Positions 9,727 to 35,430 of a stretch of DNA of 35,480 nucleotides are shown in pieces. The stretch spans positions 1-35,480 of the IMG/VR virus record IMGVR_UViG_3300005580_000011. One strand, given 5' to 3'. The notes beneath the pieces were generated by a model, which was given only the letters and a program-made list of their open reading frames with translations, did no database searches and was not told the origin of the DNA. A program made the position numbers and the translations under genes. How positions within the stretch are numbered: position 1 is the first letter of the stretch; every line of letters begins with the position of its first letter. The DNA is from a virus.

Positions 9727-12700
9727 TGGCTGACGAACAAATTGTAACAAGTATAGTCGCCAAAGCCGACTTGTCTAGCCTTGTGTCTGAAGTACACAGG
9801 GCTAGCGCCAGTCTCCAACAATTACAAAGAGAACTTCTTTCATCAAACAGGGCTATAGCTTCTTCTACAAAATTAGCAAATAATTTATTTAGGGATACAT
9901 TAACTGGAAGCGGACAGTACTCCAGCCACTTTGTAAACCTTAATTCTGATGTAGATAAGTTCGGTAAAAACCTAGATGCTGGTAGATTAAAGCTTAGAAA
10001 TTACTTCTCAACATTTAGAGAACACGCTACAACTCAAAAGGGTATGATAAGGGAGCTTGCCAAAGAGCAGGTAATGCTTCAGAATTCAGTACTGCAACCG
10101 CTAGGCAGAAATGCTCAAGGTTTAATGCAGTACAACGTTATGATTCCTAGAGGCCTAGATGCTATAGCAAATAGTGGAAAACTAGCTCGTATGGAAATGC
10201 AGATTATGAATCGTGCATTGTCTGAAGGAGCAGGATCTTTAATTAACTGGGGTAAAAATACTCAGTGGGCTGGTAGACAGCTAACTGTTGGTCTAACCGT
10301 TCCGCTTACAATGTTTGGGGCGGCAGCAGGAAAAGCTTTTAGAGAAGCAGACCAAGAGCTAGTAAGACTTACAAAAGTTTATGGTGGATTGGCTGCAACA
10401 TCTGCAACAGAGTTAAAAAGAGTTAGAGAAGAAGTTGTTGAGACCGCAAAGATGCTGTCTAAAACAATGGGTTCATCTTTTAAAGAAACTATTGCATTAG
10501 GTGCTGATATTGCAGCTACAGGGCAGATGGGTAATCAGCTTTTAGATTCCATTGCTGAAACAACAAGACTATCGATCCTTGGTGAAGTTGATAGGCAAGA
10601 TGCAATGAAAGCAACTCTATCAATTCAAACAGCATTTAAGCAAAATACTAAAGAGCTTACAGAATCAATTAACTTTTTAAACGCAGTTGAAAACCAGACA
10701 TCCACGACACTAGCAGACTTGGTAGAAGCAATTCCAAAAGCTGGCCCAGTAATTCAGCAACTAGGTGGAGATGTTAAAGACTTAGCTCTTTATCTAACTG
10801 CAATGCGAGAGGGTGGAATTAATGCGTCAGAAGGCGCTAACGCATTAAAGTCTGGATTAGCATCACTCATAAACCCAACAAAGCAAACCGTTGGAATGAT
10901 GTCAGATTTTGGCATAGATGTAATGGGTATGGTTGCAAAAAATACTGGAGACACTACTGGCCTTCTTATGGATTTGCAAAAAGCTTTAGATTCACTTGAT
11001 CCATTAAGTAAAGCAAGAGCAATGGAGCAAATGTTTGGAAAGTTCCAGTTTGCAAGAATGAGCGCATTGCTTAATAACTTAGGTAAAGAAGGAAGCCAGA
11101 CGCTTCAAGTTTTGAACTTAATGAAGGCAACTACTGGAGAGTTAGCAGATATTGCTAGCCGAGAATTAAAGATGATTACCGAGTCTGCATCTGGTAAGTA
11201 TAAGAAAGCCATTGAAGGACTTAAAGCAGAACTTGCAGATGTCGGCGAAGAGTTTTTAGGTGTTGCAACTAAACTTATAACTGCAGCAACTAAGATATTA
11301 GATTTCTTTACGGGATTGCCAGCCCCAATTAAAAAAGCTCTTACTTTCCTAGCAGGATTTACTGCATTAGTTGGCCCGCTTATTATGTTAACTGGTGTTC
11401 TTGCAAACTTCTTTGGATATATAACTAAGGGTATTGTTCAGTTAAGAGCATTCTTTATGAAAGCCAGTGGCTGGAAGATGCTTACTCCAGAAATTATTGC
11501 TGCTCAAAAAGCAGCAGAGATGGTTGAAACTGCATTCTATTCAGACGCTGCGGCAGCCCAAGTTCTTCATAATGCATTACAAAAACTTGTTTTAGATTAT
11601 CAAAACCTTCAAGCAGTATCAGCTAAAAATGCTGTACCAGTAAATCCAGGAGTAAGAACAGTTGGCGGTGCACCAGTAATGGTTGCTGGAAGAAGAGTGG
11701 TTGACCCTACTGATCCTTATGTAGGAGATGTTGATACTAGAGCAATGTCTCATATTAATCCTAGAGATCCTAATAACCCTGCAACAATATTTGGTGGGGT
11801 ACCAGGAGCGGTTCCAGTTAATAGAGGAATATCAAGAACTCCTCAAATTTACATGCATGATAGACTTCCAAATGTTGAAGGCCTAACAAGTATAAAAGGA
11901 ATATCTACAGGAATTGTTCCAGGCGAAGCGGCAAAGCACCACGCATTAATGGCAACACTTGGAATGCAAAGCCAACAAGAAATTGCAGCTTTAAAGAAAA
12001 CAATTGCAATGGGCGGAACAGTTAGCAGAGAGCTACTAGACACATTTGACGACATACTTCCTATAACTCAAAGGTTTGCAGATAGTGCAGCAACTCAATC
12101 AGCCGCAATAGTTCAGCAAATGAGAAATGCAGAAATAACAGTCGAACAAGCAAAAGCAAGAATACTTGCACTTAATGCACAAATAGAAGCAGACATGGGA
12201 GCTGCAGTAACTGCATATGCAGCAAGTCGAGGAAGAACAATAGATTTAACAAGAGCTCCAATGATGGATCAACCAGTTGTTGATGCAAATGGACAATTTA
12301 CTCTAAGAGACCTTTATAAGAAAAAAGCAAACCTATCTGTAATGAACGAGTTTGGTAGACTACGTGGAGTCAGAACATTTGGTGCTCCATATAGCATTCA
12401 AACAACAAGACCTCCTAGATTTAATACTGGTGGAGAAATAGAATCATTCGGACCAAATAAAACTACAGTATCTGGTCCATCCTCAATAGATTATGATGAC
12501 AGATTAGGAAATGTTCCTCTAGGAGGTTATGTACTCAACCAAGCCGCCTCAATGGATCCTGCAAATGCTGCCTTGGTTGCAATGGCACCAAGTACTTATT
12601 TAAACGATGGTGGTAATATAACTGCAGCGCTTACTCCACAGGAGACCGTGTTTGGTCCCCAGATTCAAAGAATGCCTGAGCTATATGCAGCAGTAGATGC

Positions 12701-15700
12701 AGCAAATAGTGGATATAATTTCGGCGGACAGATAATGAATGGCATTGCTGGATATGGAAAGAAAACAGCTAACACTCCAGGCAGTAAAATGGATGAAAGA
12801 CTATTTAAAAAGCAGTACAAGGAATATTTAAGATTTATTAATAATCCAAGGTACGCAGATGACATGAGAGTAAGAATGATTATGCTGGATGCAGCAGAAC
12901 TATCTTATACAGCAAAAATGCCTATGGATAAAGCTATACAGACAGCGACATCTAATTTTGATTCTGCTAAAATGCAATCTGGTGGATCTGATGAGCAATT
13001 TGTAAAGCTAAGAATTAAACAAGTACAAGATTTAGAAAAAAGACATCCAGAGCTAAAAGTTAAAAATGCTAAAAATGCTGAAATAAGTAGCAGTAAGGCT
13101 CTTAATTATAATTTAAATAAAGTCAGAGATGCAATGCTACGCGATCAAAGATTTGCTGGAGTGCATGATTTAATATCTGCAGTTTCTCCAACAACATTTA
13201 AAAATAAAAAAGGTATGCCTATTATTCAGGGATTGCATGATAGAGCACATTTTAGACGCAGGGGTTCTCTTGGGTACATGACCAGCGGATATATGGGCCT
13301 AGCGGCAGTTCTTCCTTCTGGAATAAATAACATAATGAGCAGGCTTGAAACTCTTGGACTATCAAGAGATGTTTTAAATTTAAATGCAGAAGATGCAAGA
13401 GAAAATTTTGCATCAGCTTTAAAGAGAACAGGTATGGATAAGTTTGCAACAGTAGATGATCTATATGCAGCAGTCATGGACGATGGTAAGTTTAAGAGCA
13501 AGGCTCAAATAGAGTCTGGTAATGTTATAAGAGCAAATAGAAAACAAAAAAATTCTTGGAGCATGTTCTTAGAGGCTGCAGCAACAAGACAAAAATGGAT
13601 TCCAGGAAGACCACCTAGACTGGTACCAGCAGGCTACAACCTTGGTGGAATGATTCCAGGTGGATCTATATCTAGAGGTAGAAGCTCTTACGGTAATCCT
13701 ATGCCGTTGTTAGCACCAGAAAAGATGCTTAAGATTTTAACAACAGCAAAGACATTAAGCTCAAAAGATTCACTAGGTTCTTTTGCCAGTATGCCAGTAA
13801 CTAAATATGGACACCAAATTGCACCAAGCTCTGGTATGAGTTATCCAGTACCTGGCGTATCTGGAATATATAGAGACCCTACAGGTAAATTAGTTTTTGT
13901 TAAAGGCGTTCCTAATGAATTAACTGCAATACATGAGCCAATCGGAACCACAATTATGAGAAACGCTTTTGGTATAAATTCTCCAGTTCAAACAGCTAGA
14001 ACAATATCTAACCCGCTAGACCCATCAAAGAAAAGCAAGCTGCTGGCCCTAGAATCAGACTTTGACCCGCGTTTTGTCAGCACTGGTGTACTTTGGAAAG
14101 AAGATCAAGTAATTAGACAGCTTGCTGGTTCTCTTCTTATGAACAATAAAGATTTATCTAGGTCAAACGTTTTTGGTAATTTTAATCCAGATGTTGGAAA
14201 TGCTGGAGTATTTGCTAAAGCATCTGGTAATGCAGCCCTCGCCACAGAAATGAATTCTATGGAAAGGCAAGCAATGATTAATTTACTTGCTGTTAAAGGC
14301 GGAGCAAGAAAAGATTTTGCACGTGATACTGCCCCAATAGTTGCTAAGATGAGCCCAAGAAAATATGGTCGACTAATGAAGAAAGCATTGGAAGAGGCTC
14401 GTCCAGAATTAGTAAAAATAATAAATGGGTTACCTAAAGAGCTTAGACAGCCATACGTTGCAATGCTTCAAAGATTAGATGATGGAATAGATGTTGATTG
14501 GAGTAAATATCATTCCATACACGCTAACCCAAGATACCTTAATTCTGGAGGACCAGTCGGTGGCGCAGTTAGACAAGGCAGATATTCCTACGGTAGAAAA
14601 GGAAACCCTGCTACACGAGCAGCGCAGGAAAGAGCCAGAGCAGAACGAGCCGCATCTTACAACACAAGAAGCGGATCTTCATACACAGCATCTGGTAATC
14701 CTCAGATGCAGGTTGCCCGTGTTCCGTATGTTGGAGGCACTGGTGTAGCTGGTAATGTTTACACTGGAGTACCTACCGCATCTATGGCTAGAACAGTTAG
14801 CACAATGAGACTTGCACAATTCCCTTATATGAATATGCCAACAATGCCAATGAACATTCCAGGAGTTGGAAATACAGCAGCAATTTCTGCAGCATTTGCA
14901 GGAATGGGAAACTCGATTAAAAGAGACTCAATCCAGCTAGCAAAAGCTATAGATATAAATGCAAGAGTTATTGCTATGTCAACTAAAGCAAGTGCACAAT
15001 CTATGATAAATACTACAAAGTCTATGTCAACAAAACTAGCGGCTTCCTCAAAGGCCCTGGCCTCAAGCATACAAGCTTTGCCTGGGAGAGCAGCAAATGG
15101 GATTAATAATTTTAGGAATTCAGTAATACAAGAGCAGCAAGCATATGCTGCAAGAAATTATCCTGCAGGAATGGCAGTTCCGACACAAGGATTCTTTGGT
15201 CCAGGATACATAGGCAAATTTAAAGATCATGGCGATGGAGTGCAATCTAGAAAAGTAGGAAGCGTAGGATTTAGAAAAAGAGAATACCTTGTAAATAATG
15301 CTTCTACTGGCGGACATAGTGTTTCAATGACAGCAGCTCAAGCAAAAGCATCTGGTGTTACAATTCCTCCAAGAGGTGGTATGGGAATGGGTGCCCAAAT
15401 GGGCATAGGTATGGCTGGCTCAATGGGCGGAATGGCATTGATGCAAAAAGAAAAAGTACTTGGAATGAGCGGTATGCAAGCTGGTCTGGGATTGATGGTT
15501 GCATCTAGCATACTTCCTTTCCTTCCGTTTGTCAGAATGGCAACTGCAGCAAAAGCAGGTATGGCTGCGGTTTCAAAGGGAATACGTACTATAGCTACAG
15601 GAGCCGCAACGGCAACAAAAGCTGTTGCCTTACTTGGTAGACTTTTAAAAGGATTTGGCCCTATAGGACTTGTAATAGGCACTGTTATTGAAGGTTTAAA

Positions 15701-18700
15701 TCTGTACAAAAAAATTCAAGATTCAAGGCAAGACGCAACCATGGGGCTTGGGCTTACAGCAAGAGCTGCTGAGCAGGCTGGAATAAAATACTTTAATTTA
15801 AATGAAGAAATGAAAAACACAATAGCAAACAGAAAATTGCTTTCAGCGCAAGCTGCAGGAGGACAAAATCTATCGGCAGGTCTTCCTGGACTTGCAATGG
15901 ATGTTAAGCAGATGAAGGTTGCAAAAGAAGAGGGCAAAAAGTTAAAAGAATTAATAGAGTCAATAAACAGATCAGGTGGATTTGACGAAACATTAAGACT
16001 TGTAAATAACCAAAAAGCTCAATTTATAGCAGCAGGGCTAAGTGTTGAAGAGGCTAATAAAAAGATTTATGGGGCATTAGCAAACAGCTCACAGAGCGGA
16101 GATATGTATAAGATACTTTCTAACTCATCATTTGCAGGAATTACAGATCAAGCTACAGCAGCTAATTTTGCAGTAGGAAATCTTCTTAATACTTTAAATA
16201 AGGGCTCCGACTTTGTTGATTTTGGAAGAGAACTAGGTGCAGGATTTGAATCATTAATTAATATATTTGGTCTAACCACAAAAGCTCTTGTAGGTACAGA
16301 AGATGAAGCAGGTAATGTTATTGACGAGTTTGCTGCTTACCAGAAAGTAATAGGAGATTTTAACAGGGTATACGGAGATGCTTTAAACAAGCCAATAGGT
16401 GACGAAGCATATAACGAGCTCTCAAGAAGTAATAGGCTTTTGGGAGAAATTACAACTAGAGCAGACAGCGTACAAGGAATTTTAGCAAAGTGGACCCTGT
16501 TCTCCTCTGGTTTTGCTGCCGATCTATCTAAAGTAGATTCTGCTCTAGCAATTAAATTAGCAGGATTTACACAATCAATAGTTGGTGCAATGGATGACTT
16601 GGGAGATGTTGGTGGAACTGCAACAACATATGGAACAGTTGAAACAGCTCTAACAAAATTGCAAAAAACAATTAATGCTACATCTGCTGCTTCTCAGAGA
16701 GCTGCAAACGCTGCACAAAGAAACGCCCAGGAAGAGCTAAAGGCAATTGCTAAAAAGATAAAGCTTATTGACGATGAAAAAAATAAAAAACTAGAAGCGT
16801 TAAGAGCAACTCAAGAAGCCTCAAATTATGCATTGGAATTGCAAAAGCTACAAATTGAATATTCTGACGCTATTTCTCGTGGAGATATGGCTAGAGCAAA
16901 CCAAGCTAAATTAGACATAGATCAACTAACTTTAAATAGACAATCCGAGCTTGCTCAGAAAGCAGTTGAAGATGCTGCAAATGCAGCAAAAGCACCTTTA
17001 GAGAAAAAAGCTGCAGGAATACAAGAAAAATCAGAAGCAAGAAGCAATGCTGCAGCCCTGGCTGCAGATAGAACAGCTGTTGCCCAAGAAATTAAATTAA
17101 CTATGGAAGGATTTCAATCTAGATACAATCAGCTAACTGTTGAAGGAATCAACGTTGCCTTGTTGCCAGTTGAACTTCAAGCAGCTGCTCAAGCTGAAGT
17201 TGATAGAAAACTAGTTGCACTTATTAAAGAAATACAAAAATCAGGAACTGGTAATTCTCTTTCTGCAAAATACATAAGAGATGGTTTTTCAAAATATTTT
17301 ACAGAAAATGGAAAAGCTATTCAACTTCAAACAACTTCTGTGGCATATAATGGAAGCGTTTTAACAGAAATAAAAACTCTAAGTAAAGGTGTACTAGATC
17401 AATTCAAGGTAGATCAAAAAGCAGTACTTGCACAAGCTGAGGCAATAACAGGCGGATTGAAAATAAAAGAGCTGAACGATAATTTGGTTAAAGCTCTCAC
17501 TAGATATGAACCAAATACTCCGCAGGGCACTAAGTCTGATGAGGTGCTTCGTCCAGGTACAGCTAAAGACTATACCAACACGGCAAAGAGTTTAAATCAA
17601 GCTGGAGCGGCAGCAACAAATCTTGTAAGCGGTGGATCTTACGAGATGTATGTTAGAGAAAATAATGACGGAATGAAGGAATACTTTAAAGTATTTAAAT
17701 ACAAAGGAAAAGCATATGCTGTAAATCCTATGGATGGACAAATATATAAGTATGATTATGCTTCTGGAACAATTACTGATCTTTATAAGTCAGTTGGAGA
17801 TGCAAATAAAAAAGCAGCAGGAGGACACATAACTGGTCCAGGAACTGGAACATCTGATTCTATTCCAGCAATGCTTTCACATGGAGAGTATGTAGTTAAA
17901 GCATCATCTGTTGCAAAATATGGAGTTAGAACACTTGATGCAATTAATAGACAGAAATTCCACAAGGGTGGTCCAGTTCATGATCATTTAGATGATGGCA
18001 CACATCCCCCTTCACAAATTTCATTAGGTGATAATAGATTTGTTTCAGTTTTGCCATCTGCAACTACTTGGAAAAAAGGAATGGACGATTTTTATAGTGT
18101 ACCTAGAAAAAATTATGGCATAGATAAAATTACATCACCAATGGGATCTCTTCAAAGATTCCTTGATATTGCAAAAAGTCAGATTGGATCGGGTCACAAC
18201 TATAGACTACATGACCGTATGACTCCTGATGGAGGATTTGGTTCTCAACTTGGTAGCGCAAAACCTGGTGATGCCAGATTCTATGACAAGGGAATGTCTG
18301 ACACTAATAAATTTAATATTTGGGGAAATAAAAAATTTGGTATAGGTGATGAAACTTCATGGTGGTGTGGACAATTTGTTGCCTGGGTAGCTGAAAAAGC
18401 TGGAGTTAAAATATCAGACAAAATGCATAGTGCATGGCAAGCAACTCAAAAGTATAAAAAGAAAGGTCTTTTTAATGATTTAACTAAAAAGAACAATTAT
18501 AAAAATATTAAAGTTGGAGACTTAGCTTGGTTTGATTATCAATACGATGAAGATGGCCGACCATTCAGAGATGGCGTTCCAGACCATGCAACTATAGTTT
18601 CTAAAGTTGCTAAAGACCATATTGGTGTAATTGGCTGGTATGGTGATGGAGACCAGGTTTCCCAGACATTTTATAAGAAAACACATCCAGGCCTATTTGG

Positions 18701-21700
18701 TTCAGTAAGCCCAGAATTTAAATCATTCCCAACAAAGATGACTCCACTTCCAAATCAATCAGGTGATCCTGAGATGTCATCTATTGATCCAACTACAGTG
18801 GACACATCAACGGCTACAGTTCCTGGTTATGCAGATGGCGGGCCTGTAAATGTTGTACCATCAATACGATCTTATTTAAAGAAAAAGACGTTTGAATCCT
18901 TCCCTAAGAAACCAGGAAAGACCCGCAGCCCAGGAATGGGCATTGATAAGGACCCAATGCGCTATGCAGGCTCTGGCGCTTCTATGGGAGGTATTGGAAG
19001 CGGAGTCTACGGATTTGGTCCACTTATGTTCCACGATGGTGGTCTAGTAGGACACAAGCATACAATGACTGCTGGTATAGAGCCAGACGGAAAACTATCT
19101 ACAATGATTAAAGCCGCAGAGTCAATGCTTGGCTTTAAAGAAGGCAACGAGGATAACGATACATTTTTTGGTAAATGGCAGGACAATAGGGATAAAAATA
19201 TAAACTCTAGGTTTATTGCTTGGTGCGGTGCCTTTATGAACTGGGTAGCAAATGCTGCTGGAGTTCCATTAGATAATATGGTTTATACAGCTGGTGGTGC
19301 TCAAAAGTTTAAAGAAAAGGGTGATTACCATACATCAGATCCACAGGTAGGAGATATGGCATTCTTTAATTATGGATATGATAACAATAAGCCAGGCCAG
19401 GATCGAATACAGCATATAGGTTTAGTCAGAAACATTTTATCAAAATCTTTGCTTGAGACAATTGAAGGAAATACTGCAGAGGTAGAACCACCACTAGTAT
19501 TCCCAAAGGGATATGAAGATAAAGAATATTATGACAAGGATAGACTATTTAGAATTAGAGACGGTGTATTTAAAAGAAAAAGATTATACAACCATCCAGG
19601 AGCATCTATAGTTGGGTTTGGAAGACCTAAGTATAAAGGAGAAACTACACTCGGTGGACTATTAATAAATAGCGGAAAAACTCCAATCATTCCAAATATT
19701 GGAAAAGATCCACGCTCTCTTTACGCAGCAGCTCTTGGATATGCCGATGGCGGTATTGTAAACTCTAATAATTCTCCATTCTTATTTAATGCGGAAACAC
19801 ATAAAAAAAATAATCCTTTAATTAGAGAAAATTATAAATTAGAAGCAGAAGGAAAGTTTCGCCCTTACACACCAGCTATTCTTCCAGATAGAAGCTCAAT
19901 AACTCAAGAAGAAATTAATCAGATTTTAAAGGGAAGGTATCTTCCTGAAACACCAGAAGCAGCTGAATTCTTTGCCTTGCAGTCAATGAATGGTTACAGA
20001 GATCTTGACTTTATTAGAAAGAATTTAAAAAAGGCTACAGCATCCAGATTGCCTAATTTCAATATGTCCCCAGCAATTGGAAGATCAGCAACAGCACTGG
20101 CACGTAACGGAAGATCAGAAGAATTTATTAGACACGTTTTGGGAATCACAGATCCTTCTATTCCAGTTCCAGGGTTTAAAGGAGGCGCAGGATATGCTAA
20201 CGGCGGCTTAGTTAAAGGATATAAAGACGGAGGATTATTTGGCGGGCTGAAAAATAAATTCAGTAGCTACTTCGATCAGTTTGGAAAAAATAAAGAAGAT
20301 GTTGATAAAGCACCTGGTACAAGAAAGTATACTGAAGGAATCCTTAGAGGGATTATGAGAAGCGTTGATCCAACGGGCGGAATGTTGCAGAAGATGCCTG
20401 GACACAAATCAATAGAAAACTTTATCTACTCTGCCGTTGGAAAACCAATTGAAGAAATAATAGCAGGTAGCGGAACCAAGGGAGACTATCTCTGGACAGG
20501 ACTAAACTTTGTTCCAGGAGCAAGTATTTTAAAGGGTGCAAAAGGAGTAAATGCTGGAATAAAGGGAGCAACTCGCATTGGCTTAGCATCTGTTATGGAG
20601 ACGGTAGAGAGGGCAAAAAACACTGTTCCTTTATTAAAATCATTTAATCCATTTAAATATTCTAGTGAGACAGCTTACGCCGCAAAAAGATTTTCTCCTT
20701 TAACTGTTTTTGATAACACTGTATTGTTTCCAAAATTATTAAATAAGTTAATGGACGGAGGCGCATTAGCTAAAACAGAAGCAAAATCTAAATATGCTGA
20801 ATTAATCGAAAAAATGAATTCTGCAGCAAGTACCTGGGAAAGAACTAAAACTGGAAGCTTCCCACTTTCTCCGTTTATACAAGGATCATTACAAGCTGGC
20901 ACAGGCATAATTATAAACACTCCAAGGCAGCTGGCAAAAGCATTTAAGTCTAGAAATCAGAAAGCAACTGGATTTAAAGCCTTGGCAGAAAGAGCTAGCG
21001 CATTTTTAAAGCCACCTGGAGATAACCCAGCTTTTTGGTCAAGGGGATATGGTGTAGCAATGCCATCCCTTGCAAAAACAACAATTGATATAGCTGGAAA
21101 TGCAGTTAGACACCCTCACGCAACTGTTCAAACTTTAATTCACGAGCTTGGACATAGAGATCATGATCTATTTGGAAATCTTTCATCAATATGGAGTGGG
21201 CTTAAAGAATCAGGTAAGGTCCCCGAACCCAACATGGGAAGCATTAAAGAATTTTATGCTGATCTATTTTCATATAGAGGAATAAAATCTTTAAAGGATA
21301 AACTCCCTGGTTTTGATTCATTAAAACACCGTTGGGAAGAAGGCCTGGGGTACAATCTAGGTTCTCCAGCTTCTTCAACCTTAGAGAGTTCTGTATTAGA
21401 TAATTTATACGAACAACTGGAGATCGCTCTACGAAATCCTGGAGTAAGAGGACCCCAAGTAGGGCAAGCGTGGTCGCAAACTCAAGCCGCTCTTATGAGA
21501 ACAGCAGAACCTGTCGTGACTGGGACTCAGTCTTTGATATACGAGGGCATGGCCAAGATATTTGGGGAAAATGGAATAATAAGCGGAGCTGATAATTTTG
21601 AAAATCTAGTAGCATTAGCTACTAAGATGGGTTGGGATGATTTAATTCCAAAGGCTGGATCTGCAAAGAAGCCAAATCTATTAACATCAATTCTTTCTAA

Positions 21701-22115
21701 TATGCCACCTTTAGGACTACCGCTTTCTCCAATAAATGCTTTACAAGATAAAACAGGTATTGATATGGATAAGATAATGAAGGCCCTTGGTAAAATGCTA
21801 ACAGTTACCTCGCCAATAGGAAATAAAGGCCCTGGCAATATGTATAACTTACCTAGATTTGAGGCGGGAATCAATATGGTTCCAGCAGATATGTTAGCAA
21901 TGATTCATAAGAATGAAGCAGTAGTACCAGCACATATGAACCCATTTAATCCAAATGCTACAACATCTGCAATAGCATCAGGATCAGTATATAATATTAA
22001 TGTAGAGCTAAATGGAACTACAGTAACAGCACAAGATGTTGCAACTCAAATACACAGAGAGATGAAATTAAAAGAAATGGCAGCTGGAGTAAATAGAAAA
22101 GTTGGTAGACCATGA
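9726..22115 (+). CDS. Giant tape measure protein with embedded enzyme-like modules
   Basis: At 4129 residues this is a very long tape measure, which sets tail length and is ejected ahead of the DNA. The GTG start has AGGAG at 9715-9719 and overlaps the chaperone stop by one base. Residues about 150-510 resemble the TP901 tape-measure core (INWGKNTQWAGRQLTVGLTVPLTMFG, AFREADQELVRLTKVYGG). Hydrophobic stretches lie near 535-580 and 1889-1990 and a long coiled coil near 2318-2470. Further modules are an unrecognised region (1030-1300), a possible kinase-like domain (1355-1605), two CHAP-type domains (around Cys2881 and Cys3167) and a zincin (HELGH at 3806). Repeated GG signposts separate them. 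The C-terminus (VELNGTTVTAQDVATQIHREM) is typical for the family. The CHAP domains fit local peptidoglycan opening during DNA entry. Confidence 0.95.
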   Translation: MADEQIVTSIVAKADLSSLVSEVHRASASLQQLQRELLSSNRAIASSTKLANNLFRDTLTGSGQYSSHFVNLNSDVDKFGKNLDAGRLKLRNYFSTFREHATTQKGMIRELAKEQVMLQNSVLQPLGRNAQGLMQYNVMIPRGLDAIANSGKLARMEMQIMNRALSEGAGSLINWGKNTQWAGRQLTVGLTVPLTMFGAAAGKAFREADQELVRLTKVYGGLAATSATELKRVREEVVETAKMLSKTMGSSFKETIALGADIAATGQMGNQLLDSIAETTRLSILGEVDRQDAMKATLSIQTAFKQNTKELTESINFLNAVENQTSTTLADLVEAIPKAGPVIQQLGGDVKDLALYLTAMREGGINASEGANALKSGLASLINPTKQTVGMMSDFGIDVMGMVAKNTGDTTGLLMDLQKALDSLDPLSKARAMEQMFGKFQFARMSALLNNLGKEGSQTLQVLNLMKATTGELADIASRELKMITESASGKYKKAIEGLKAELADVGEEFLGVATKLITAATKILDFFTGLPAPIKKALTFLAGFTALVGPLIMLTGVLANFFGYITKGIVQLRAFFMKASGWKMLTPEIIAAQKAAEMVETAFYSDAAAAQVLHNALQKLVLDYQNLQAVSAKNAVPVNPGVRTVGGAPVMVAGRRVVDPTDPYVGDVDTRAMSHINPRDPNNPATIFGGVPGAVPVNRGISRTPQIYMHDRLPNVEGLTSIKGISTGIVPGEAAKHHALMATLGMQSQQEIAALKKTIAMGGTVSRELLDTFDDILPITQRFADSAATQSAAIVQQMRNAEITVEQAKARILALNAQIEADMGAAVTAYAASRGRTIDLTRAPMMDQPVVDANGQFTLRDLYKKKANLSVMNEFGRLRGVRTFGAPYSIQTTRPPRFNTGGEIESFGPNKTTVSGPSSIDYDDRLGNVPLGGYVLNQAASMDPANAALVAMAPSTYLNDGGNITAALTPQETVFGPQIQRMPELYAAVDAANSGYNFGGQIMNGIAGYGKKTANTPGSKMDERLFKKQYKEYLRFINNPRYADDMRVRMIMLDAAELSYTAKMPMDKAIQTATSNFDSAKMQSGGSDEQFVKLRIKQVQDLEKRHPELKVKNAKNAEISSSKALNYNLNKVRDAMLRDQRFAGVHDLISAVSPTTFKNKKGMPIIQGLHDRAHFRRRGSLGYMTSGYMGLAAVLPSGINNIMSRLETLGLSRDVLNLNAEDARENFASALKRTGMDKFATVDDLYAAVMDDGKFKSKAQIESGNVIRANRKQKNSWSMFLEAAATRQKWIPGRPPRLVPAGYNLGGMIPGGSISRGRSSYGNPMPLLAPEKMLKILTTAKTLSSKDSLGSFASMPVTKYGHQIAPSSGMSYPVPGVSGIYRDPTGKLVFVKGVPNELTAIHEPIGTTIMRNAFGINSPVQTARTISNPLDPSKKSKLLALESDFDPRFVSTGVLWKEDQVIRQLAGSLLMNNKDLSRSNVFGNFNPDVGNAGVFAKASGNAALATEMNSMERQAMINLLAVKGGARKDFARDTAPIVAKMSPRKYGRLMKKALEEARPELVKIINGLPKELRQPYVAMLQRLDDGIDVDWSKYHSIHANPRYLNSGGPVGGAVRQGRYSYGRKGNPATRAAQERARAERAASYNTRSGSSYTASGNPQMQVARVPYVGGTGVAGNVYTGVPTASMARTVSTMRLAQFPYMNMPTMPMNIPGVGNTAAISAAFAGMGNSIKRDSIQLAKAIDINARVIAMSTKASAQSMINTTKSMSTKLAASSKALASSIQALPGRAANGINNFRNSVIQEQQAYAARNYPAGMAVPTQGFFGPGYIGKFKDHGDGVQSRKVGSVGFRKREYLVNNASTGGHSVSMTAAQAKASGVTIPPRGGMGMGAQMGIGMAGSMGGMALMQKEKVLGMSGMQAGLGLMVASSILPFLPFVRMATAAKAGMAAVSKGIRTIATGAATATKAVALLGRLLKGFGPIGLVIGTVIEGLNLYKKIQDSRQDATMGLGLTARAAEQAGIKYFNLNEEMKNTIANRKLLSAQAAGGQNLSAGLPGLAMDVKQMKVAKEEGKKLKELIESINRSGGFDETLRLVNNQKAQFIAAGLSVEEANKKIYGALANSSQSGDMYKILSNSSFAGITDQATAANFAVGNLLNTLNKGSDFVDFGRELGAGFESLINIFGLTTKALVGTEDEAGNVIDEFAAYQKVIGDFNRVYGDALNKPIGDEAYNELSRSNRLLGEITTRADSVQGILAKWTLFSSGFAADLSKVDSALAIKLAGFTQSIVGAMDDLGDVGGTATTYGTVETALTKLQKTINATSAASQRAANAAQRNAQEELKAIAKKIKLIDDEKNKKLEALRATQEASNYALELQKLQIEYSDAISRGDMARANQAKLDIDQLTLNRQSELAQKAVEDAANAAKAPLEKKAAGIQEKSEARSNAAALAADRTAVAQEIKLTMEGFQSRYNQLTVEGINVALLPVELQAAAQAEVDRKLVALIKEIQKSGTGNSLSAKYIRDGFSKYFTENGKAIQLQTTSVAYNGSVLTEIKTLSKGVLDQFKVDQKAVLAQAEAITGGLKIKELNDNLVKALTRYEPNTPQGTKSDEVLRPGTAKDYTNTAKSLNQAGAAATNLVSGGSYEMYVRENNDGMKEYFKVFKYKGKAYAVNPMDGQIYKYDYASGTITDLYKSVGDANKKAAGGHITGPGTGTSDSIPAMLSHGEYVVKASSVAKYGVRTLDAINRQKFHKGGPVHDHLDDGTHPPSQISLGDNRFVSVLPSATTWKKGMDDFYSVPRKNYGIDKITSPMGSLQRFLDIAKSQIGSGHNYRLHDRMTPDGGFGSQLGSAKPGDARFYDKGMSDTNKFNIWGNKKFGIGDETSWWCGQFVAWVAEKAGVKISDKMHSAWQATQKYKKKGLFNDLTKKNNYKNIKVGDLAWFDYQYDEDGRPFRDGVPDHATIVSKVAKDHIGVIGWYGDGDQVSQTFYKKTHPGLFGSVSPEFKSFPTKMTPLPNQSGDPEMSSIDPTTVDTSTATVPGYADGGPVNVVPSIRSYLKKKTFESFPKKPGKTRSPGMGIDKDPMRYAGSGASMGGIGSGVYGFGPLMFHDGGLVGHKHTMTAGIEPDGKLSTMIKAAESMLGFKEGNEDNDTFFGKWQDNRDKNINSRFIAWCGAFMNWVANAAGVPLDNMVYTAGGAQKFKEKGDYHTSDPQVGDMAFFNYGYDNNKPGQDRIQHIGLVRNILSKSLLETIEGNTAEVEPPLVFPKGYEDKEYYDKDRLFRIRDGVFKRKRLYNHPGASIVGFGRPKYKGETTLGGLLINSGKTPIIPNIGKDPRSLYAAALGYADGGIVNSNNSPFLFNAETHKKNNPLIRENYKLEAEGKFRPYTPAILPDRSSITQEEINQILKGRYLPETPEAAEFFALQSMNGYRDLDFIRKNLKKATASRLPNFNMSPAIGRSATALARNGRSEEFIRHVLGITDPSIPVPGFKGGAGYANGGLVKGYKDGGLFGGLKNKFSSYFDQFGKNKEDVDKAPGTRKYTEGILRGIMRSVDPTGGMLQKMPGHKSIENFIYSAVGKPIEEIIAGSGTKGDYLWTGLNFVPGASILKGAKGVNAGIKGATRIGLASVMETVERAKNTVPLLKSFNPFKYSSETAYAAKRFSPLTVFDNTVLFPKLLNKLMDGGALAKTEAKSKYAELIEKMNSAASTWERTKTGSFPLSPFIQGSLQAGTGIIINTPRQLAKAFKSRNQKATGFKALAERASAFLKPPGDNPAFWSRGYGVAMPSLAKTTIDIAGNAVRHPHATVQTLIHELGHRDHDLFGNLSSIWSGLKESGKVPEPNMGSIKEFYADLFSYRGIKSLKDKLPGFDSLKHRWEEGLGYNLGSPASSTLESSVLDNLYEQLEIALRNPGVRGPQVGQAWSQTQAALMRTAEPVVTGTQSLIYEGMAKIFGENGIISGADNFENLVALATKMGWDDLIPKAGSAKKPNLLTSILSNMPPLGLPLSPINALQDKTGIDMDKIMKALGKMLTVTSPIGNKGPGNMYNLPRFEAGINMVPADMLAMIHKNEAVVPAHMNPFNPNATTSAIASGSVYNINVELNGTTVTAQDVATQIHREMKLKEMAAGVNRKVGRP
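10173..11255 (+). other. Tape measure core domain (TP901-like), residues about 150-510
   Basis: Helical region with the family-typical pattern of an amphipathic start (SLINWGKNTQWAGRQLTVG), a Gly/Ala hinge, then AFREADQELVRLTKVYGG and KETIALGADIAATGQMG. It is followed by a hydrophobic pair of helices at about residues 535-580 (ALTFLAGFTALVGPLIMLTG), where tape measures usually carry their membrane-active part. Confidence 0.75.
12813..13625 (+). other. Unrecognised module in tape measure, residues about 1030-1300
   Basis: A Lys/Arg/Asp-rich globular region flanked by GG signposts at 1000 and 1307. It has KKQYKEYLRFINNPRYADDMRVRM, a long helix, then SAVSPTTFKNKKGMP, GLHDRAHFRRRGSLGYMT and LDVLNLNAEDAR-like helical segments. 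Its composition differs from the surrounding Ala/Gly-rich tape measure helices. I do not recognise the fold. Confidence 0.5.
13788..14540 (+). other. Possible kinase-fold (HipA-like) module in tape measure, residues about 1355-1605
   Basis: GIYRDPTGKLVFVKG resembles a kinase glycine/beta hairpin with a strand lysine (Lys1393), followed by a helix glutamate (Glu1404). Further on, MNNKDLSRSN gives Asp1476-x4-Asn1481, the spacing of the catalytic loop of protein kinases and HipA, and Asp1489 could be the second metal ligand. The region lies between GG signposts at 1307 and 1608. The spacing to the last Asp is shorter than usual and the assignment is tentative. Confidence 0.4.
15390..17135 (+). 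other. Hydrophobic region followed by long coiled coil in tape measure
   Basis: Residues about 1889-1990 are Gly/Ala/Met-rich and strongly hydrophobic (QAGLGLMVASSILPFLPFV and LLKGFGPIGLVIGTVIEGL), compatible with membrane insertion or pore formation. Residues about 2318-2470 form a charged Ala/Lys/Glu-rich coiled coil, the ruler-like part. Confidence 0.6.
18123..18725 (+). other. CHAP/NlpC-P60-type cysteine peptidase module 1 in tape measure
   Basis: Residues about 2800-3000. The helix FLDIAKSQIG leads into WWCGQFVAWVAEKAGV with candidate nucleophile Cys2881, then KVGDLAWFDYQ and DHATIVSKV with His2954, and GVIGWYGDGD. Order and spacing (Cys-x72-His) fit CHAP amidase/endopeptidases. The likely role is cutting cell-wall peptidoglycan at the injection site. 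Confidence 0.78.
19068..19625 (+). other. CHAP-type cysteine peptidase module 2 in tape measure
   Basis: Residues about 3115-3300. IKAAESMLGFKEG, then FIAWCGAFMNWVANAAGVP with Cys3167, QVGDMAFFNYGYD, and RIQHIGLVRNI with His3230 (Cys-x62-His), followed by TIEGNT, the strand typical of CHAP domains. It is clearly diverged from module 1 at the sequence level, so it is either an old duplication or a separate acquisition. Confidence 0.78.
21003..21335 (+). other. Zincin metallopeptidase-like module in tape measure
   Basis: TVQTLIHELGHRDHDLFG carries a full HExxH motif (His3806, Glu3807, His3810) in a helix context, and IKEFYADLFSYR provides a candidate third ligand Glu3842, 31 residues further on, the gluzincin arrangement. 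The preceding strand RHPHATVQ and the long polar surroundings fit a small zincin of the kind found in phage polyvalent proteins. Substrate unknown. Confidence 0.65.
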
Positions 22116-32200: not shown

Positions 32201-32820
32201 ATAGTCTTTTCTATTCTGCAAATAGTGGATCATTTACTCCAACAACTCAAACTGGAGTTCAAGGTGCTTCAATAACATTAGCGGCAAATGCTGGAACTAG
32301 AGCTGGATTTACTTTTGGAGGATGGAGTATTGGAGGTATTACATATTCTGGGTCAGGATCATATACATTCGGTGCTGGAAATGCAACAGCAACTGCAATT
32401 TGGAATACAACATTTGTTACACCTACTTGCCCAGCTCCAAGTTTATTTTTCAGAAGATTTCCAACCGACACTAGCTCTAGCTGGGAGTATTTCTGTGACT
32501 ACCCAACTCCTAGCGGAAGTTATCAGTCTATCACTGGCATGCAATTTGAGATATATTCAGCAAACTCTACTGCTGGATCAAAAGTTACTGGTGGTGCTGG
32601 AATACAAACATTCCCTGGATCCGTAACTACCTATCCGTATACAAGTTCAAGAGACGGAACAATTTGGGGATTTAGAATTGCATCTGGCTCAAGCTCTTCT
32701 TCAAGCCCATTAGGAACAAGAGTTGCTACAACTGCAAGAAGATATGGTCGCGTGAGAGTAGTTATGCTTGGGACCAATGGAACTACATATTATGGAACTT
32801 GGACAAGCCCACTATTATGA
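29287..32820 (+). CDS. Large tail fibre/adhesin with FnIII, three chitin-binding-like repeats and InlB-type repeat
   Basis: This 1177-residue protein opens with an 18-residue direct repeat (IFVKTSGLGSTGW) used in many phage tail proteins as an attachment segment. FnIII-like sequence spans about 297-405 (LTASSNRGDGVLLSWSAVTG to YYRVRARSAAV). Three tandem modules at about 483-525, 541-585 and 590-632 share the W/Y-x-Y-x2-G/N-x-V-x-Y-x-G-x-x-Y ... YW pattern of CBM5/12 chitin-binding-like domains. Ig-like beta repeats follow, and residues 1006-1039 (AGFTFGGWSIGGITYSGSGS) match the Flg_new/InlB B-repeat. The rest is Ser/Thr/Gly-rich. The protein is probably a receptor-binding fibre recognising cell-wall or surface glycans. 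AGGA lies 10 nt upstream of the ATG; the next gene overlaps by 4 nt. Confidence 0.78.
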   Translation: MSDIFVKTSGLGSTGWKKASSIFVKTSGLGSTGWRSAVGVWIRNATQWLKVWPLSGIFATRVPYIAKFSSNTYAERMPNATYPVVRIGDSYFGDNAQWDLNGWLASSYTYRWKIYAEYDLEGSILESGTGSGWTSTAGEDQLPTSIWTVTNSTNADRKFLGFEVIANNSSNSQYNGVSVSTKIQIVRQRPRIATAPSFNITSPKIGDTINYSSGWDITEAYRPEPLRSTIFWYKNSTATTTGGTQVQSGGYSYLVQAGDLNHYIYAVETNFNSGSDYDLGPSIGVSATAITNNAVITSLLPAPTSLTASSNRGDGVLLSWSAVTGANYYEIYWQSSQGTGPVNQSLFSDFGSDNSITGTSFIDTTISPGSTRYYRVRARSAAVSTGTNCSNWFPAPASNAIAGFRIKPGAITRPTSYSFATSTATGYFTTGTNTSSVQYKLQGVNIPISTPTYTLSTTSSYPYQVSLNPSSLFTERTWTNDTWSPSTTYYANNTVWYAGNQYQSKLISFSGAGTVPSTSGSNTYWTRGSLVGTTPTTSRTWSSSTSYTQGQTVYYGTGTTGASVYQYTANDPGFSGQSPTNTTYWTLITQRTYYVGDYVIYNGTRFYALQTTTGVYPSSGPNWTSSLGYWRYEFTPYFSTAAGDVAYSSATRDMGLSHTAPTDSLVLATPITFSNVTSTSFTSNYTTGNYANYTHIDTYKISPFNRPSNYPKIIATLNIQTYTDTPTGPLEAFTDYAVNVTPRYYYSVENISLEIPNIYYEGTTTNGTIKTLAAAPTAPTITSVTSGVVYSPVSVTCNGGSGPFYQMFWWGSATAPTGAQTPDATGASNTPTSTPVTLTDASGPSINGTYWAFVRSVITRDDTSIGPSNTVSAWSSAFQFTVTLNPAVPFSYNTGSSTAGGWSATISGTSQSGATYSIPATTGYSVNSSTGTVTATGLGSNVSTSIVVTKSVSGYNNTTATASGTSSTIPTYSLFYSANSGSFTPTTQTGVQGASITLAANAGTRAGFTFGGWSIGGITYSGSGSYTFGAGNATATAIWNTTFVTPTCPAPSLFFRRFPTDTSSSWEYFCDYPTPSGSYQSITGMQFEIYSANSTAGSKVTGGAGIQTFPGSVTTYPYTSSRDGTIWGFRIASGSSSSSSPLGTRVATTARRYGRVRVVMLGTNGTTYYGTWTSPLL
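29296..29403 (+). repeat. Tandem 54-nt direct repeat encoding IFVKTSGLGSTGW units
   Basis: Two adjacent 54-nt units (29296-29349 and 29350-29403) encode IFVKTSGLGSTGW-KKASS and IFVKTSGLGSTGW-RSAVG. The first 26 nt of each unit are identical; later positions differ mostly at third codon positions. A degenerate third unit (VWIRNATQWLKVW) follows. Confidence 0.9.
30727..31176 (+). repeat. Three tandem carbohydrate-binding-like protein modules
   Basis: Modules at residues about 483-525, 541-585 and 590-632 of the fibre each show an early aromatic residue, Y-x-x-x-x-x-V-x-Y, and a closing YW, the skeleton of CBM5/12-type modules. DNA identity between units is low, so the duplication is old or the units were recruited separately. 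Confidence 0.6.
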
Positions 32821-32981
32821 TGATAAAAATACAAGACAAGCAGTATTTAATTCAGTCTAAAATTAAAGTTTTAGAGGGAAGAAGAAATCGTTTTTTAAAT
32901 AATGACCCAGAAATTACTGACTCAATAGAGGATATAGAGTCTCAGATTCAGGCCTTGACTAATGTGCTTGAAATGCTATAA
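32817..32981 (+). CDS. Small coiled-coil protein 1
   Basis: I choose ATG 32817 (54 residues; ATGA overlap with the fibre stop) over a TTG 18 nt upstream inside the fibre gene. The protein is almost entirely helical and charged (KIQDKQYLIQSKIKVLEGRR, DSIEDIESQIQALTNVLEML), with heptad-like spacing of Ile/Leu. It resembles the next gene product in layout: a first helix ending in a Leu-Glu turn, a short polar loop, then a helix of I-E-x-x-I type. Together they look like a small paralogous family. Position after the fibres suggests a fibre chaperone or assembly helper; that is inference. The promoter of the next gene overlaps its stop codon. Confidence 0.65.
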   Translation: MMIKIQDKQYLIQSKIKVLEGRRNRFLNNDPEITDSIEDIESQIQALTNVLEML

Positions 32982-32982
32982 T
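32955..32982 (+). promoter_or_regulatory. Strong promoter for small coiled-coil genes
   Basis: TTGACT at 32955-32960 (5 of 6), 16-nt spacer, extended -10 TGCTATAAT at 32974-32982. It lies within the end of the preceding gene, whose TAA is part of the -10 box. The downstream gene has AAAGGAGG at 32986-32993, just 3 nt after the -10, so transcription starting at the usual 6-8 nt would begin inside or near the ribosome site. Confidence 0.75.
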
Positions 32983-33405: not shown

Positions 33406-33822
33406 ATGACAGAAATATTCCAAGATGGAGAGCCTGTAGATTCAGTAAAATTGCAAAAGATGCAATCAGAAATTACAGCACTTGCAGCTCAGACTAAGAA
33501 TGCCTACGATCTAAGCCAAACAACATCGGATAGGGTAGCTGGTTTAACCGTTACATATACAAAAGCATACAGAGTTGATTTTGAAAATGGATTAAACATA
33601 GGTAAGAATGAAGAGCCTATTGGTATGAAATGGGATGGGTTTACAGATGTATATCTAGTAGCCTGCCCAAGAGGTGCTTTATACAAGCACGATATTACAT
33701 GGTCAATTTCTGGAGGAATAGGAAGTCATGTTCTCCATGTTCAAAACAACACAAAAGCCAAAATAACTGGAGTAAAGTTTGATATTATTGGCGCTGGAAC
33801 AAAGCCAGCTGTAACAGCATAA
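33406..33822 (+). CDS. Small fibre-like structural protein, coiled coil plus beta domain
   Basis: The 138-residue protein has an N-terminal coiled coil (VDSVKLQKMQSEITALAAQT, residues about 11-45) followed by a beta-sandwich-like C-terminal domain (TYTKAYRVDFENGLNIGKNE, FTDVYLVACPRGALYKHDIT, ITGVKFDIIGAGTKP). This stalk-plus-head plan resembles short trimeric head fibres or tail-fibre tips. AAGGGG at 33394-33398 serves as ribosome site with a 7-nt spacing. It is the last gene before the regulatory cassette at 33828, so it probably ends the late transcript. Whether it decorates the capsid or the tail cannot be told from the sequence. Confidence 0.68.
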   Translation: MTEIFQDGEPVDSVKLQKMQSEITALAAQTKNAYDLSQTTSDRVAGLTVTYTKAYRVDFENGLNIGKNEEPIGMKWDGFTDVYLVACPRGALYKHDITWSISGGIGSHVLHVQNNTKAKITGVKFDIIGAGTKPAVTA

Positions 33823-33827
33823 GCCCC

Positions 33828-33855
33828 TTGACAAGCTGAATCAATATGTTACAAT
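33828..33855 (+). promoter_or_regulatory. Near-consensus promoter upstream of metallophosphoesterase cluster
   Basis: A perfect TTGACA at 33828-33833, 16-nt spacer, and extended -10 TGTTACAAT at 33847-33855 (core TACAAT). This is the best -35/-10 pair in the window. Predicted start of transcription is near 33862. Confidence 0.85.
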
Positions 33856-33866
33856 TAATGTAACAT
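33846..33866. promoter_or_regulatory. Palindromic operator-like site over the -10 box
   Basis: ATGTTAC at 33846-33852 and GTAACAT at 33860-33866 are perfect 7-bp inverted repeats separated by 7 nt (AATTAAT). The half-sites are centred one helical turn-plus apart (14 bp), covering the -10 box and the predicted start site, where a dimeric repressor would block transcription. Confidence 0.65.
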
Positions 33867-33867
33867 C

Positions 33868-33892
33868 AAAGTCACGTACCCGTGACTTTTTT
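33868..33892 (+). terminator. Intrinsic terminator just downstream of the promoter
   Basis: AAAGTCACG at 33868-33876 pairs perfectly with CGTGACTTT at 33881-33889 across a TACC loop, followed by a T-run to 33892. It lies after the promoter and before the next gene, so it may end the upstream late transcript, act as an attenuator, or release a roughly 30-nt RNA. Confidence 0.85.
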
Positions 33893-33909
33893 ACATATTA
33901 AGGTAGACA

Positions 33910-34710
33910 ATGAGTAATGATTTAAAATGGATGATATCATCCGACCAGCAATTTCCATATCAAGATGATAATATGATTGCCCTCTGGTTTAAAGTGATGA
34001 AATGGTTTAAGCCAGATGTCGTTGACTACCTTGGCGATACAGATGATCAAGCCTGCTATAGTAAATATACAGAAGGAAGATCAGCAGAATTTTTAAACCT
34101 TCACAAGACTGACAGTAGAGATCTTATTGTTCCTATGATGAGGCATGAAGCAAAAGGCGCTAGAGATTTTTATACAAAGACAAGAGACATGCTCCCAGAT
34201 GCTCAGCTTTTCTCAGCACTTGGAAACCATGATGTTAGAATCTTTAACTATGTTGATGCAAAGCTTCCAGACTATATTAATGAAGTTACACCAGAAGCTT
34301 TGTGGGGATTAGATTCATTAGGTTATGAGTACATTCATTATAACGAATTGCCAAAGCGCCGTTTTGGAGATATTCATGTTCATCATGGGCTTTCAATTGC
34401 ATCAACTGGATCTGTTCGTAAAGATATGGAAGACTTGCAGGTATCGTTAATTAGAGGTCACTCTCATAGAATTGCTTCGCACCTTGTAACATATGAACTA
34501 CGAAATGGTGGAGAGGGAGAAACTCTTCGTGGATACGAGCTTGGTCACATGTGTGATGAAAAAGGGCCAGGAATGAAATATATGCAGCACCATGATTGGC
34601 AAAAGGGGTTTGCTATTGCACATATTGTAAATGATTATCCACATATTCAAATGATTCATGTGGCACCAGATTACTCATGTGTTGTTGATGGGAAGCTATT
34701 TACACTATGA
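33910..34710 (+). CDS. Calcineurin-like metallophosphoesterase
   Basis: The 266-residue protein carries the full set of metallophosphoesterase motifs: SSDQQ (Asp12), GDTDD at 42-46, GNHD at 105-108, HVHHG at 156-160 and GHSH at 183-186. These residues bind two metal ions and hydrolyse phosphodiester or phosphomonoester bonds. Phages often encode such enzymes near DNA-metabolism genes; substrates range from nucleic acid ends to signalling nucleotides, and none can be chosen here. The first motif has D-x-Q in place of the common D-x-H, a known variant. The ribosome site AAGG lies 6 nt before the ATG, behind the promoter-terminator cassette. The next gene overlaps by 4 nt. It marks the switch from virion genes to a different module. 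Confidence 0.88.
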   Translation: MSNDLKWMISSDQQFPYQDDNMIALWFKVMKWFKPDVVDYLGDTDDQACYSKYTEGRSAEFLNLHKTDSRDLIVPMMRHEAKGARDFYTKTRDMLPDAQLFSALGNHDVRIFNYVDAKLPDYINEVTPEALWGLDSLGYEYIHYNELPKRRFGDIHVHHGLSIASTGSVRKDMEDLQVSLIRGHSHRIASHLVTYELRNGGEGETLRGYELGHMCDEKGPGMKYMQHHDWQKGFAIAHIVNDYPHIQMIHVAPDYSCVVDGKLFTL

Positions 34711-34895
34711 TGAAATGTAACAAATGCCAAGGAAGAGTTTTTGTTGACAGGGTGTTTTCACAAAAATTACACGTAGAGCTTTTCTGCATGATGTGCGGTA
34801 AAAGATGGATGATCAATAAGGATACGAGTGCATTAGGTAAATGGATAGAAAAAAGAGAAAACAGTCAGCTAAGAGCATTCGGTATTTCTTCTTAA
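34707..34895 (+). CDS. Small zinc-ribbon protein
   Basis: A 62-residue protein with two CxxC knuckles (MKCNKCQGR near residues 4-7 and FCMMCGKRW near 27-30), the arrangement of a zinc ribbon that usually binds nucleic acid or protein partners. The C-terminal part is a short basic helix. It is coupled to the metallophosphoesterase by an ATGA overlap, and its 3' end overlaps the following HTH gene by 55 nt. Such small ribbons are frequent in phage non-structural clusters. A nucleic-acid-related role is inferred. Confidence 0.75.
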   Translation: MMKCNKCQGRVFVDRVFSQKLHVELFCMMCGKRWMINKDTSALGKWIEKRENSQLRAFGISS

Positions 34896-35323
34896 ATAAC
34901 AAGATACATAAAGTATTAAGTCATTCAAGATCTAAAGACCAAATGGTTGCTTGGTGCTATCCAGATAAAAAAAGGTTACTATATTCTTATTCACAAGTTT
35001 TAAAAACTATGGAGAATGCATATTCAACTAGTCAGGTAGCGCAAATGCTTGGCAAGCATAAAGTCACTATAGAAGATTATATTTTGGACGGGAAGATTAG
35101 ATATCCTCAGAAAGTATATCCAATAGGTAACCCAGATAGTACATGGTATAAGTTTATGTATAGTGAATCGGACATTATGGACATACATGAGTTTATATTA
35201 GAATCAGGGTATTCTAATAACATGCCTTCAAAAAATGAGATGAAGGCTCTTCTCAAACACAACACTATATTGTATACTAAGACAACAGAAGGGAACTTTG
35301 TGCCAGTATGGAAAGCAGAGTAG
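34841..35323 (+). CDS. Helix-turn-helix DNA-binding protein
   Basis: The 160-residue protein contains, at about residues 61-82, YSTSQVAQMLGKHKVTIEDYI, a MerR/excisionase-like helix-turn-helix. It is followed by a wing-like DGKIRYPQKVY segment and SESDIMDIHEFI, as in small DNA-binding adaptors of actinophages. The N-terminus is strongly basic (MDRKKRKQSAKSIR). The ATG at 34841 has a weak AGGT site and gives a 55-nt overlap with the zinc ribbon; a later Met (residue 35) is possible but would drop a well-structured N-terminal part. It is the only clear DNA-binding regulator candidate in the window, so it might act on the palindrome 1 kb upstream, which is speculative. Confidence 0.72.
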   Translation: MDRKKRKQSAKSIRYFFLNNKIHKVLSHSRSKDQMVAWCYPDKKRLLYSYSQVLKTMENAYSTSQVAQMLGKHKVTIEDYILDGKIRYPQKVYPIGNPDSTWYKFMYSESDIMDIHEFILESGYSNNMPSKNEMKALLKHNTILYTKTTEGNFVPVWKAE

Positions 35324-35430
35324 TCCCAGCAAGAGTTGTAGTATGTGAAATATGTAAGAAAGAATTGGTATTGCGTTGGGGCATTTTTGCTCATGACACT
35401 TTAAGCAGACATAGAAAGGCGGAGCACTAA
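35308..35430 (+). CDS. 40-residue Cys2-His2 zinc-finger-like peptide
   Basis: ATG 35308 to TAA 35428-35430 encodes a 40-residue protein with VCEICKKEL (Cys-x2-Cys) and LSRHRKAEH (His-x4-His), separated by about 17 residues: a compact Cys2-His2 finger. It overlaps the HTH gene by 16 nt, and its stop overlaps the next ATG (TAATG). The tight fit between neighbours and the metal-ligand pattern support it as real despite its size. Candidate roles are DNA or RNA binding or binding of a host protein. No ribosome site is obvious, so translational coupling is likely. Confidence 0.62.
   Translation: MESRVVPARVVVCEICKKELVLRWGIFAHDTLSRHRKAEH

Follow-up and report, generated by a model that had tools for sequence, protein, structure and literature searches.

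A 65-bp cassette fills most of the gap between the structural-side genes and the phosphoesterase group of an IMG/VR phage contig, and in it a strong-looking promoter leads straight into a terminator-like hairpin, with a dyad lying over the -10 box and the start region (Table 1). Sequence and comparison reveal its parts, their order, its single copy, its conservation and the covariation within the dyad. Conserved in relatives whose synonymous sites are nearly saturated, the cassette is a likely control point of the replication operon. We give an even chance to the reading that it is a strong but attenuated promoter, overlapping the end of the upstream transcript and controlling the replication operon at the structural/replication boundary. 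All positions are counted on the window, which is the whole 35,480-base virus record.

The cassette and its genomic setting

The window genes before position 33822 encode portal, protease, capsid, tape measure and tail proteins. The tape measure (4129 aa, 9726-22115) contains a CHAP peptidase/amidase domain, and the idea that this giant ORF is a virion RNA polymerase using a hairpin promoter was dropped on that identification. On the other side, the cluster of phosphoesterase, zinc ribbon, HTH and Cys2-His2 genes listed in the initial annotation is present, its last member being a 40-aa ORF (35308-35430) with a Cys2-His2-like pattern and no confident family. The phosphoesterase marks the start of the replication module in a relative, and the downstream genes of the relative G012 encode a DnaB-like helicase, a primase, a single-strand binding protein, a DNA polymerase and a UvsX-like recombinase.

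Table 1 Features of the cassette and its neighbours, with positions in the window
Feature	Position	Strand	Basis or remark
Last upstream gene, 138 aa, without family match	33406..33822	+	Stop codon 5 nt before -35
-35 box TTGACA	33828..33833	+	Sequence
Extended -10, TG-T-TACAAT	33847..33855	+	TG at 33847-33848, TACAAT at 33850-33855; sequence, relatives
Dyad / hairpin 1, ATGTTACA-ATTAA-TGTAACAT, over -10 and start	33846..33866	+	Sequence, folding
Predicted transcription start region	33860..33862	+	Inferred from distance to -10
Hairpin 2, 9-bp stem, TACC loop, T6; intrinsic-terminator-like	33868..33892	+	Folding, comparison
AAGG, likely ribosome-binding site	33900..33903	+	Sequence, inference
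Metallophosphoesterase, first gene of downstream module	33910..34710	+	phrog_221, E 9e-52
Small Cys-rich protein, zinc-ribbon-like	34707..34895	+	phrog_12850, E 3e-22
HTH protein	34841..35323	+	phrog_9440 / weak HTH_17

The near-consensus extended promoter proposed initially is confirmed at 33828-33855: TTGACA-16-TACAAT scores 11/12 plus the TG, with -35, -10 and spacing all of sigma-70 type. Hairpin 2 (AAAGTCACG-TACC-CGTGACTTT, 33868-33889, with the T-run at 33887-33892) has the stable GC-containing stem followed by T6 of an intrinsic terminator, although it is unlisted by a standard motif scan and came from folding and a script. The RNA from 33862 to 33892 folds at -10.7 kcal/mol (z -5.6), a value that 0 of 200 shuffles equals, and the predicted length from start to the end of the T-run, about 31 nt, agrees with the earlier estimate of about 30 nt. 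The palindrome ATGTTAC-N7-GTAACAT, likewise noted before, is exact and occurs nowhere else in the window in exact form; 8-bp arms with a 5-nt loop describe it better than 7-7-7.

Chance readily supplies promoters and does not supply the combination. We scanned both strands of 60 whole-window shuffles that preserve dinucleotides, scoring promoters at 10/12 or better: promoters occur about 12.6 times per shuffle (13 in the real window), a dyad of at least 7 occurs 0.03 times per shuffle, and promoter, hairpin and T-run together occur 0 times, against once in the real window. The palindrome alone is less striking, with 6 matches in the window at up to 3 mismatches where 2.3 are expected.

Two other readings of the site were set aside. 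A bidirectional promoter was rejected by eye, the minus-strand -10 lacking its last T in L060, L505 and L511, and a replication origin is unsupported, as a GC-skew switch is absent at the site in G016, G009 and G012. Elsewhere in the window, a second extended promoter (11/12, TTGACT-16-TATAAT, 32955-32982) lies at the end of the ORF 32799-32981, with similar sites in the relatives G001 and G007.

Conservation across divergent relatives

Relatives were selected by phosphoesterase alone, to avoid choosing by cassette (the best 80 of 535, the best 80 of 423 and the best 80 of 574, plus 9), and the 248 loci pooled with the window gave 165 distinct upstream regions. Under a rule that allows a spacer of 15-17 nt, 125 of the 165 have the promoter and 40 do not; at least two of the latter (L463, L549) are short fragments, and a wider-spaced promoter seems visible by eye in L457 and L416. 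Loci L268-L386, having been picked by promoter and palindrome, are excluded from the 125-region statistics, and L082-L084 were unused.

Conservation of TTGAC and TANNNT in these regions is by construction, because the promoter rule fixes both. Beyond it, the spacer is 16 nt in 117 of the 125 and 17 nt in the other 8, and the TATG extension is conserved at 95-100% per position in the 117 with a 16-nt spacer. No part of the promoter varies more than the -35/-10 spacer in those 117, the most frequent base reaching 32-66% at nine positions.

The cassette occurs in all 80 nearest relatives, and a hairpin follows the promoter in 121 of the 125 promoter-bearing regions. The hairpin starts 12-14 nt past the -10 in 109 of the 121, and a T-run (5 or more T among the 8 bases that follow the final stem G or C) is found in 108. 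The 13 regions without one are L028, L400, six of GGCCATGA type, two of GGCGAC type and three of GCATAG type. Pairing of the stem persists through at least seven arm sequences (GTCACG, GCCACG, GTCACA, GTCGCA, GGTCACG, GGTCACA and GGCCATGA), and the T-run can survive a changed stem, as in six regions with GGTCACG/CGTGACC followed by CTTTTTT. In 20 chosen relatives, identity to the window at phosphoesterase fourfold sites is 42-72%, near saturation; the GTCACG...CGTGAC arms are intact in 16 of them.

Position and copy number are equally constrained. In 124/124 relatives with enough sequence, the end of a plus-strand ORF lies no more than 17 nt from the -35, at a median of 4 nt before it, and each of 21 records examined holds one match to the motif at up to 1 mismatch and one hairpin. 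Collection-wide there are at least 119 exact matches to promoter plus palindrome, 117 of them directly before a phosphoesterase; the remaining two run off the end of the retrieved sequence. Of 306 promoter-like sites on three long contigs, the only ones followed by a T-rich hairpin are the three cassettes and one weaker G016 site.

The cassette is absent in Rhodococcus relatives and in several outgroups, the outgroups still having the phosphoesterase gene. Host genomes gave 4 pattern matches, and 0 relatives among the genome contigs searched; Rfam returned no family at gathering level (best 23.2 bits against 51.4). In one outgroup, L438, a hairpin upstream of the phosphoesterase (CCAGTCT-GAT-AGACTGG) encloses the -10 itself and has a T-rich stretch behind it. 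Two distant phosphoesterase lineages (L494, L495, L498 and L504; L553 and L554) share one T-run-less GGCCATGA hairpin in place of the usual one, a distribution that suggests cassette exchange.

A covarying dyad over the -10 box

Conservation of the terminator without promoter and palindrome had been named beforehand as refuting the initial proposal, and the outcome is mixed. Promoter and hairpin do travel together, and the palindrome does so in part, being exact in 61 of the 125 promoter regions and present with one mismatched pair in 14 more. Its arms covary. With the left arm GTTAC (71 regions), GTAAC follows at spacing 7 or 9 in 54 and GTAGC in 0; with GCTAC (29 regions), GTAGC follows at spacing 7, 8 or 9 in 7 and GTAAC in 0. 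Arms therefore match in all 61 regions having both, as GTTAC/GTAAC or GCTAC/GTAGC and never mixed. The C/G arm type appears at about five separate places on the phosphoesterase tree, beside T/A types, on a FastTree topology with many weak branches and possible recombination.

A stem of at least 6 (wobble allowed, loop 3-7) is present in 69 of the 125 regions, where 200 shuffles give a mean of 5.1 and a maximum of 12. Shuffle nulls ignore relatedness, which a test on 19 clusters corrects in part: 12 clusters have such a stem, which in 10 of the 12 involves the -10; the 200 shuffles average 2.9 and reach at most 6. Regions without the standard dyad can pair the promoter differently. The -10 pairs with an upstream TGTAGCA in L494, L495, L498 and L504 and with AGCATA in L539 and L544, the -35 is paired instead in L407 and L408, and a dyad on the -35 is visible by eye in L009, L051 and L078 of clade B. 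We also scored the folding of read-through RNA ahead of hairpin 2 with the promoter letters held fixed; it is better than in shuffles, with a mean z of -2.36 in the 61 regions with the dyad and -1.43 in 50 without it. Clade B (14 regions; mean z -0.72, median 0.09) speaks against a general rule.

Could the dyad be an operator at which a dimeric phage repressor turns the promoter off, site and protein co-evolving? This concerns the dyad alone, is compatible with the attenuated promoter, and is possible without being what we expect. An inverted repeat overlapping the promoter, perfectly symmetric over -10 and start, is what such an operator would show, the consistent matching of the two arms would fit it, and a palindrome also lies in the spacer of a different promoter of these phages (G016:18627). 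The half-site spacing, however, varies between 7, 8 and 9 across relatives, although it could be fixed within one phage; the arms extend inward, so that the loop is mostly 3-6; the dyad is absent in about half of the regions; and in some lineages the -10 has its pairing partner upstream, or it is the -35 that pairs. Nor does the adjacent HTH protein, put forward initially as a candidate binder, track the dyad: one HTH sequence accompanies the palindrome in nine regions but lacks it in three, and a single palindrome goes with several different HTH sequences.

Since the arms covary at spacings of 7, 8 or 9 and the -10 or -35 finds different partners in other lineages, the dyad seems closer to a conserved secondary structure than to a fixed operator. 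If so, the cassette would couple neighbouring operons in an unusual way. One form of this, which we rate as unlikely, is a structure-coded gate in which the promoter is kept in a stem-loop by any pairing neighbour, coupling late transcription to shutoff of the replication promoter; the gate could be a hairpin either of the read-through RNA or of the DNA itself, supercoiled or single-stranded, and the terminator right behind could stop late transcription from expressing the operon. The palindromes might instead be functionless products of template-switch mutation around a fixed -10. The dyad is labile on the tree (37 state changes) and its loop and partner side are variable, as this would predict, but 66 other strong promoters on three contigs lack such folding (mean z -0.11, 14% below -1.5), and we consider the explanation improbable.

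The spacer palindrome of G016 (L555), CCTAGT-CA-ACTAGG, belongs to another consensus promoter at 18627-18656; similar ones occur in G002, G015 and G017, and a fully symmetric CCTAGTCGACTAGG in one relative.

A model for control of the replication operon

From the arrangement we infer promoter and terminator activity, regulated read-through and a role for hairpin 1. A near-consensus promoter read by the host sigma factor would drive the replication operon, the phosphoesterase and then further genes; in G012 the operon under such a promoter would comprise DnaB helicase, primase, SSB and DNA polymerase. The promoter's RNA would form the terminator hairpin at once (RNA positions about 7-28, U-run to about 31), and most starts would presumably end as an RNA of about 31 nt. 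Operon output would then equal promoter strength times read-through and be raised by any factor that lowers termination. Because the arrangement is kept across very divergent relatives, the cassette probably meters replication-operon output in this manner, a function amenable to a simple reporter.

Hairpin 2 would also end upstream transcription, and on longer upstream RNA the -10 region would fold as a second hairpin just before the terminator. A transcript must start upstream to contain both arms of hairpin 1, because the promoter's own RNA begins inside the right arm. As the upstream gene ends beside the -35 in every relative that could be scored, RNA spanning hairpin 1 is to be expected, and the cassette would thus combine two overlapping signals, an attenuated replication promoter and the structural transcript's 3' end.

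The conserved order of promoter then terminator favours attenuation, as a plain late terminator could equally precede the promoter. Against it stand the outgroups that carry the phosphoesterase without the cassette, and the regions without a T-run, which include L028 and two separate groups with the strong GGCCATGA hairpin, so that the hairpin can persist without a terminator. That persistence, together with the narrow range of distances from the -10, would suit a 5'-end hairpin of the replication mRNA that protects it or shapes its leader, termination being weak or incidental. This is rather unlikely, given that the T-run is kept in most regions, including those in which it is unpaired with the stem. 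Somewhat less likely still is a terminator serving the upstream structural transcript only, which promoter-started polymerase passes because it is so close to its start. The adjoining gene end and the confinement of hairpin 1 to upstream-derived RNA agree with such a terminator, but it leaves the placement of the promoter before the terminator unexplained and assumes unequal treatment of two polymerases.

The product itself, a functional RNA of about 30 nt in the initial annotation, is possible as such, though its predicted ends (about 31 nt) and strongly conserved stem sequence are offset by a variable loop, a 5' tail that differs between clades, T-runs missing in some lineages and the lack of an Rfam family at gathering level; we regard it as the least probable of the explanations considered. 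Pairing of the RNA 5' end with bases beyond the T-run was also tried and dropped; it fits TTTTTTACAT and clade B and fails for the TTTTTTCG and TTTTTTAA classes.

Comparison with known systems

With promoter running into terminator both real in the sequence and conserved, attenuation or read-through control is well motivated, and the cassette may work like a promoter-proximal attenuator. Repression plus antitermination, as first proposed, is partly supported: its promoter-into-terminator core stands, whereas the 34841 protein is unsupported as operator reader. A classical loading site of the Q/AlpA type is absent between -35 and -10, where the 117 relatives are variable.

Three comparable systems have been described. 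Like the lambdoid late promoter pR' of 21Q, the cassette is a phage promoter followed by an intrinsic terminator needing read-through (PMC6606751); in that system the spacer between -35 and -10 contains the Q binding element, and a -10-like pause is required (PMC6606751), whereas the cassette's spacer is unconserved and its genes are replication genes. The AlpA-controlled alpB promoter of Pseudomonas aeruginosa also has a terminator immediately before the first gene, with expression set by read-through, and uses a 6-bp AlpA element between -10 and -35 (PMC7969949, PMC9371919); an AlpA-like element or protein was not found for the cassette. The GafZ-controlled GTA promoter of Caulobacter combines a near-palindrome between -10 and -35 at the promoter of a phage-derived cluster with downstream terminators, placed after the first gene (PMC11150451), in contrast to the cassette's palindrome over -10 and start and terminator before the first gene. 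An ordinary operon-end intrinsic terminator shares the GC-containing stem, the T-run and the position just past the last structural stop codon, but does not have the next operon's strong promoter nested before it.

An intrinsic terminator thus stands between promoter and controlled genes, as in the Q/AlpA/GafZ class; membership is unsupported because the spacer, where their binding elements lie, is variable here. A dedicated antiterminator of this type, loading at the promoter and carrying polymerase through, would explain the shared order of promoter then intrinsic terminator (PMC6606751, PMC9371919, PMC7969949 and PMC11150451), and is nevertheless improbable, on account of that spacer and of a pause-like -10 element in the initial transcribed region whose enrichment is weak overall (mean 5.56 against 5.24, sd 0.085) and missing where lineages lack the dyad (5.46 against 5.36, sd 0.15). 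Two further observations count against the attenuation reading itself: many other promoters of these phages have no terminator, so a genome-wide antitermination programme is absent, and NusG, sought as an antiterminator, was found in 0/10 relatives. A listing-level survey of the literature on promoter-proximal terminators, tiny RNAs, actinophage transcriptomes and promoter/terminator overlap returned no description of the cassette.

Phage group and host

The phages form a large set of lake viruses, which probably infect actinobacteria. A search for a phage sigma factor gave 0/10 relatives, and nothing was found in the literature on the gene timing of these lake phages. A WhiB-like protein is encoded by all ten of the longest among 20 relative records opened, and phosphoesterase homologues occur in 749 phage records, nearly all from phages of Mycobacterium, Streptomyces and Rhodococcus; the host is therefore probably an actinobacterium. 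Freshwater Nanopelagicales are our guess, resting on low GC (37-39% in three relatives) and on the abstract of PMC10202952.
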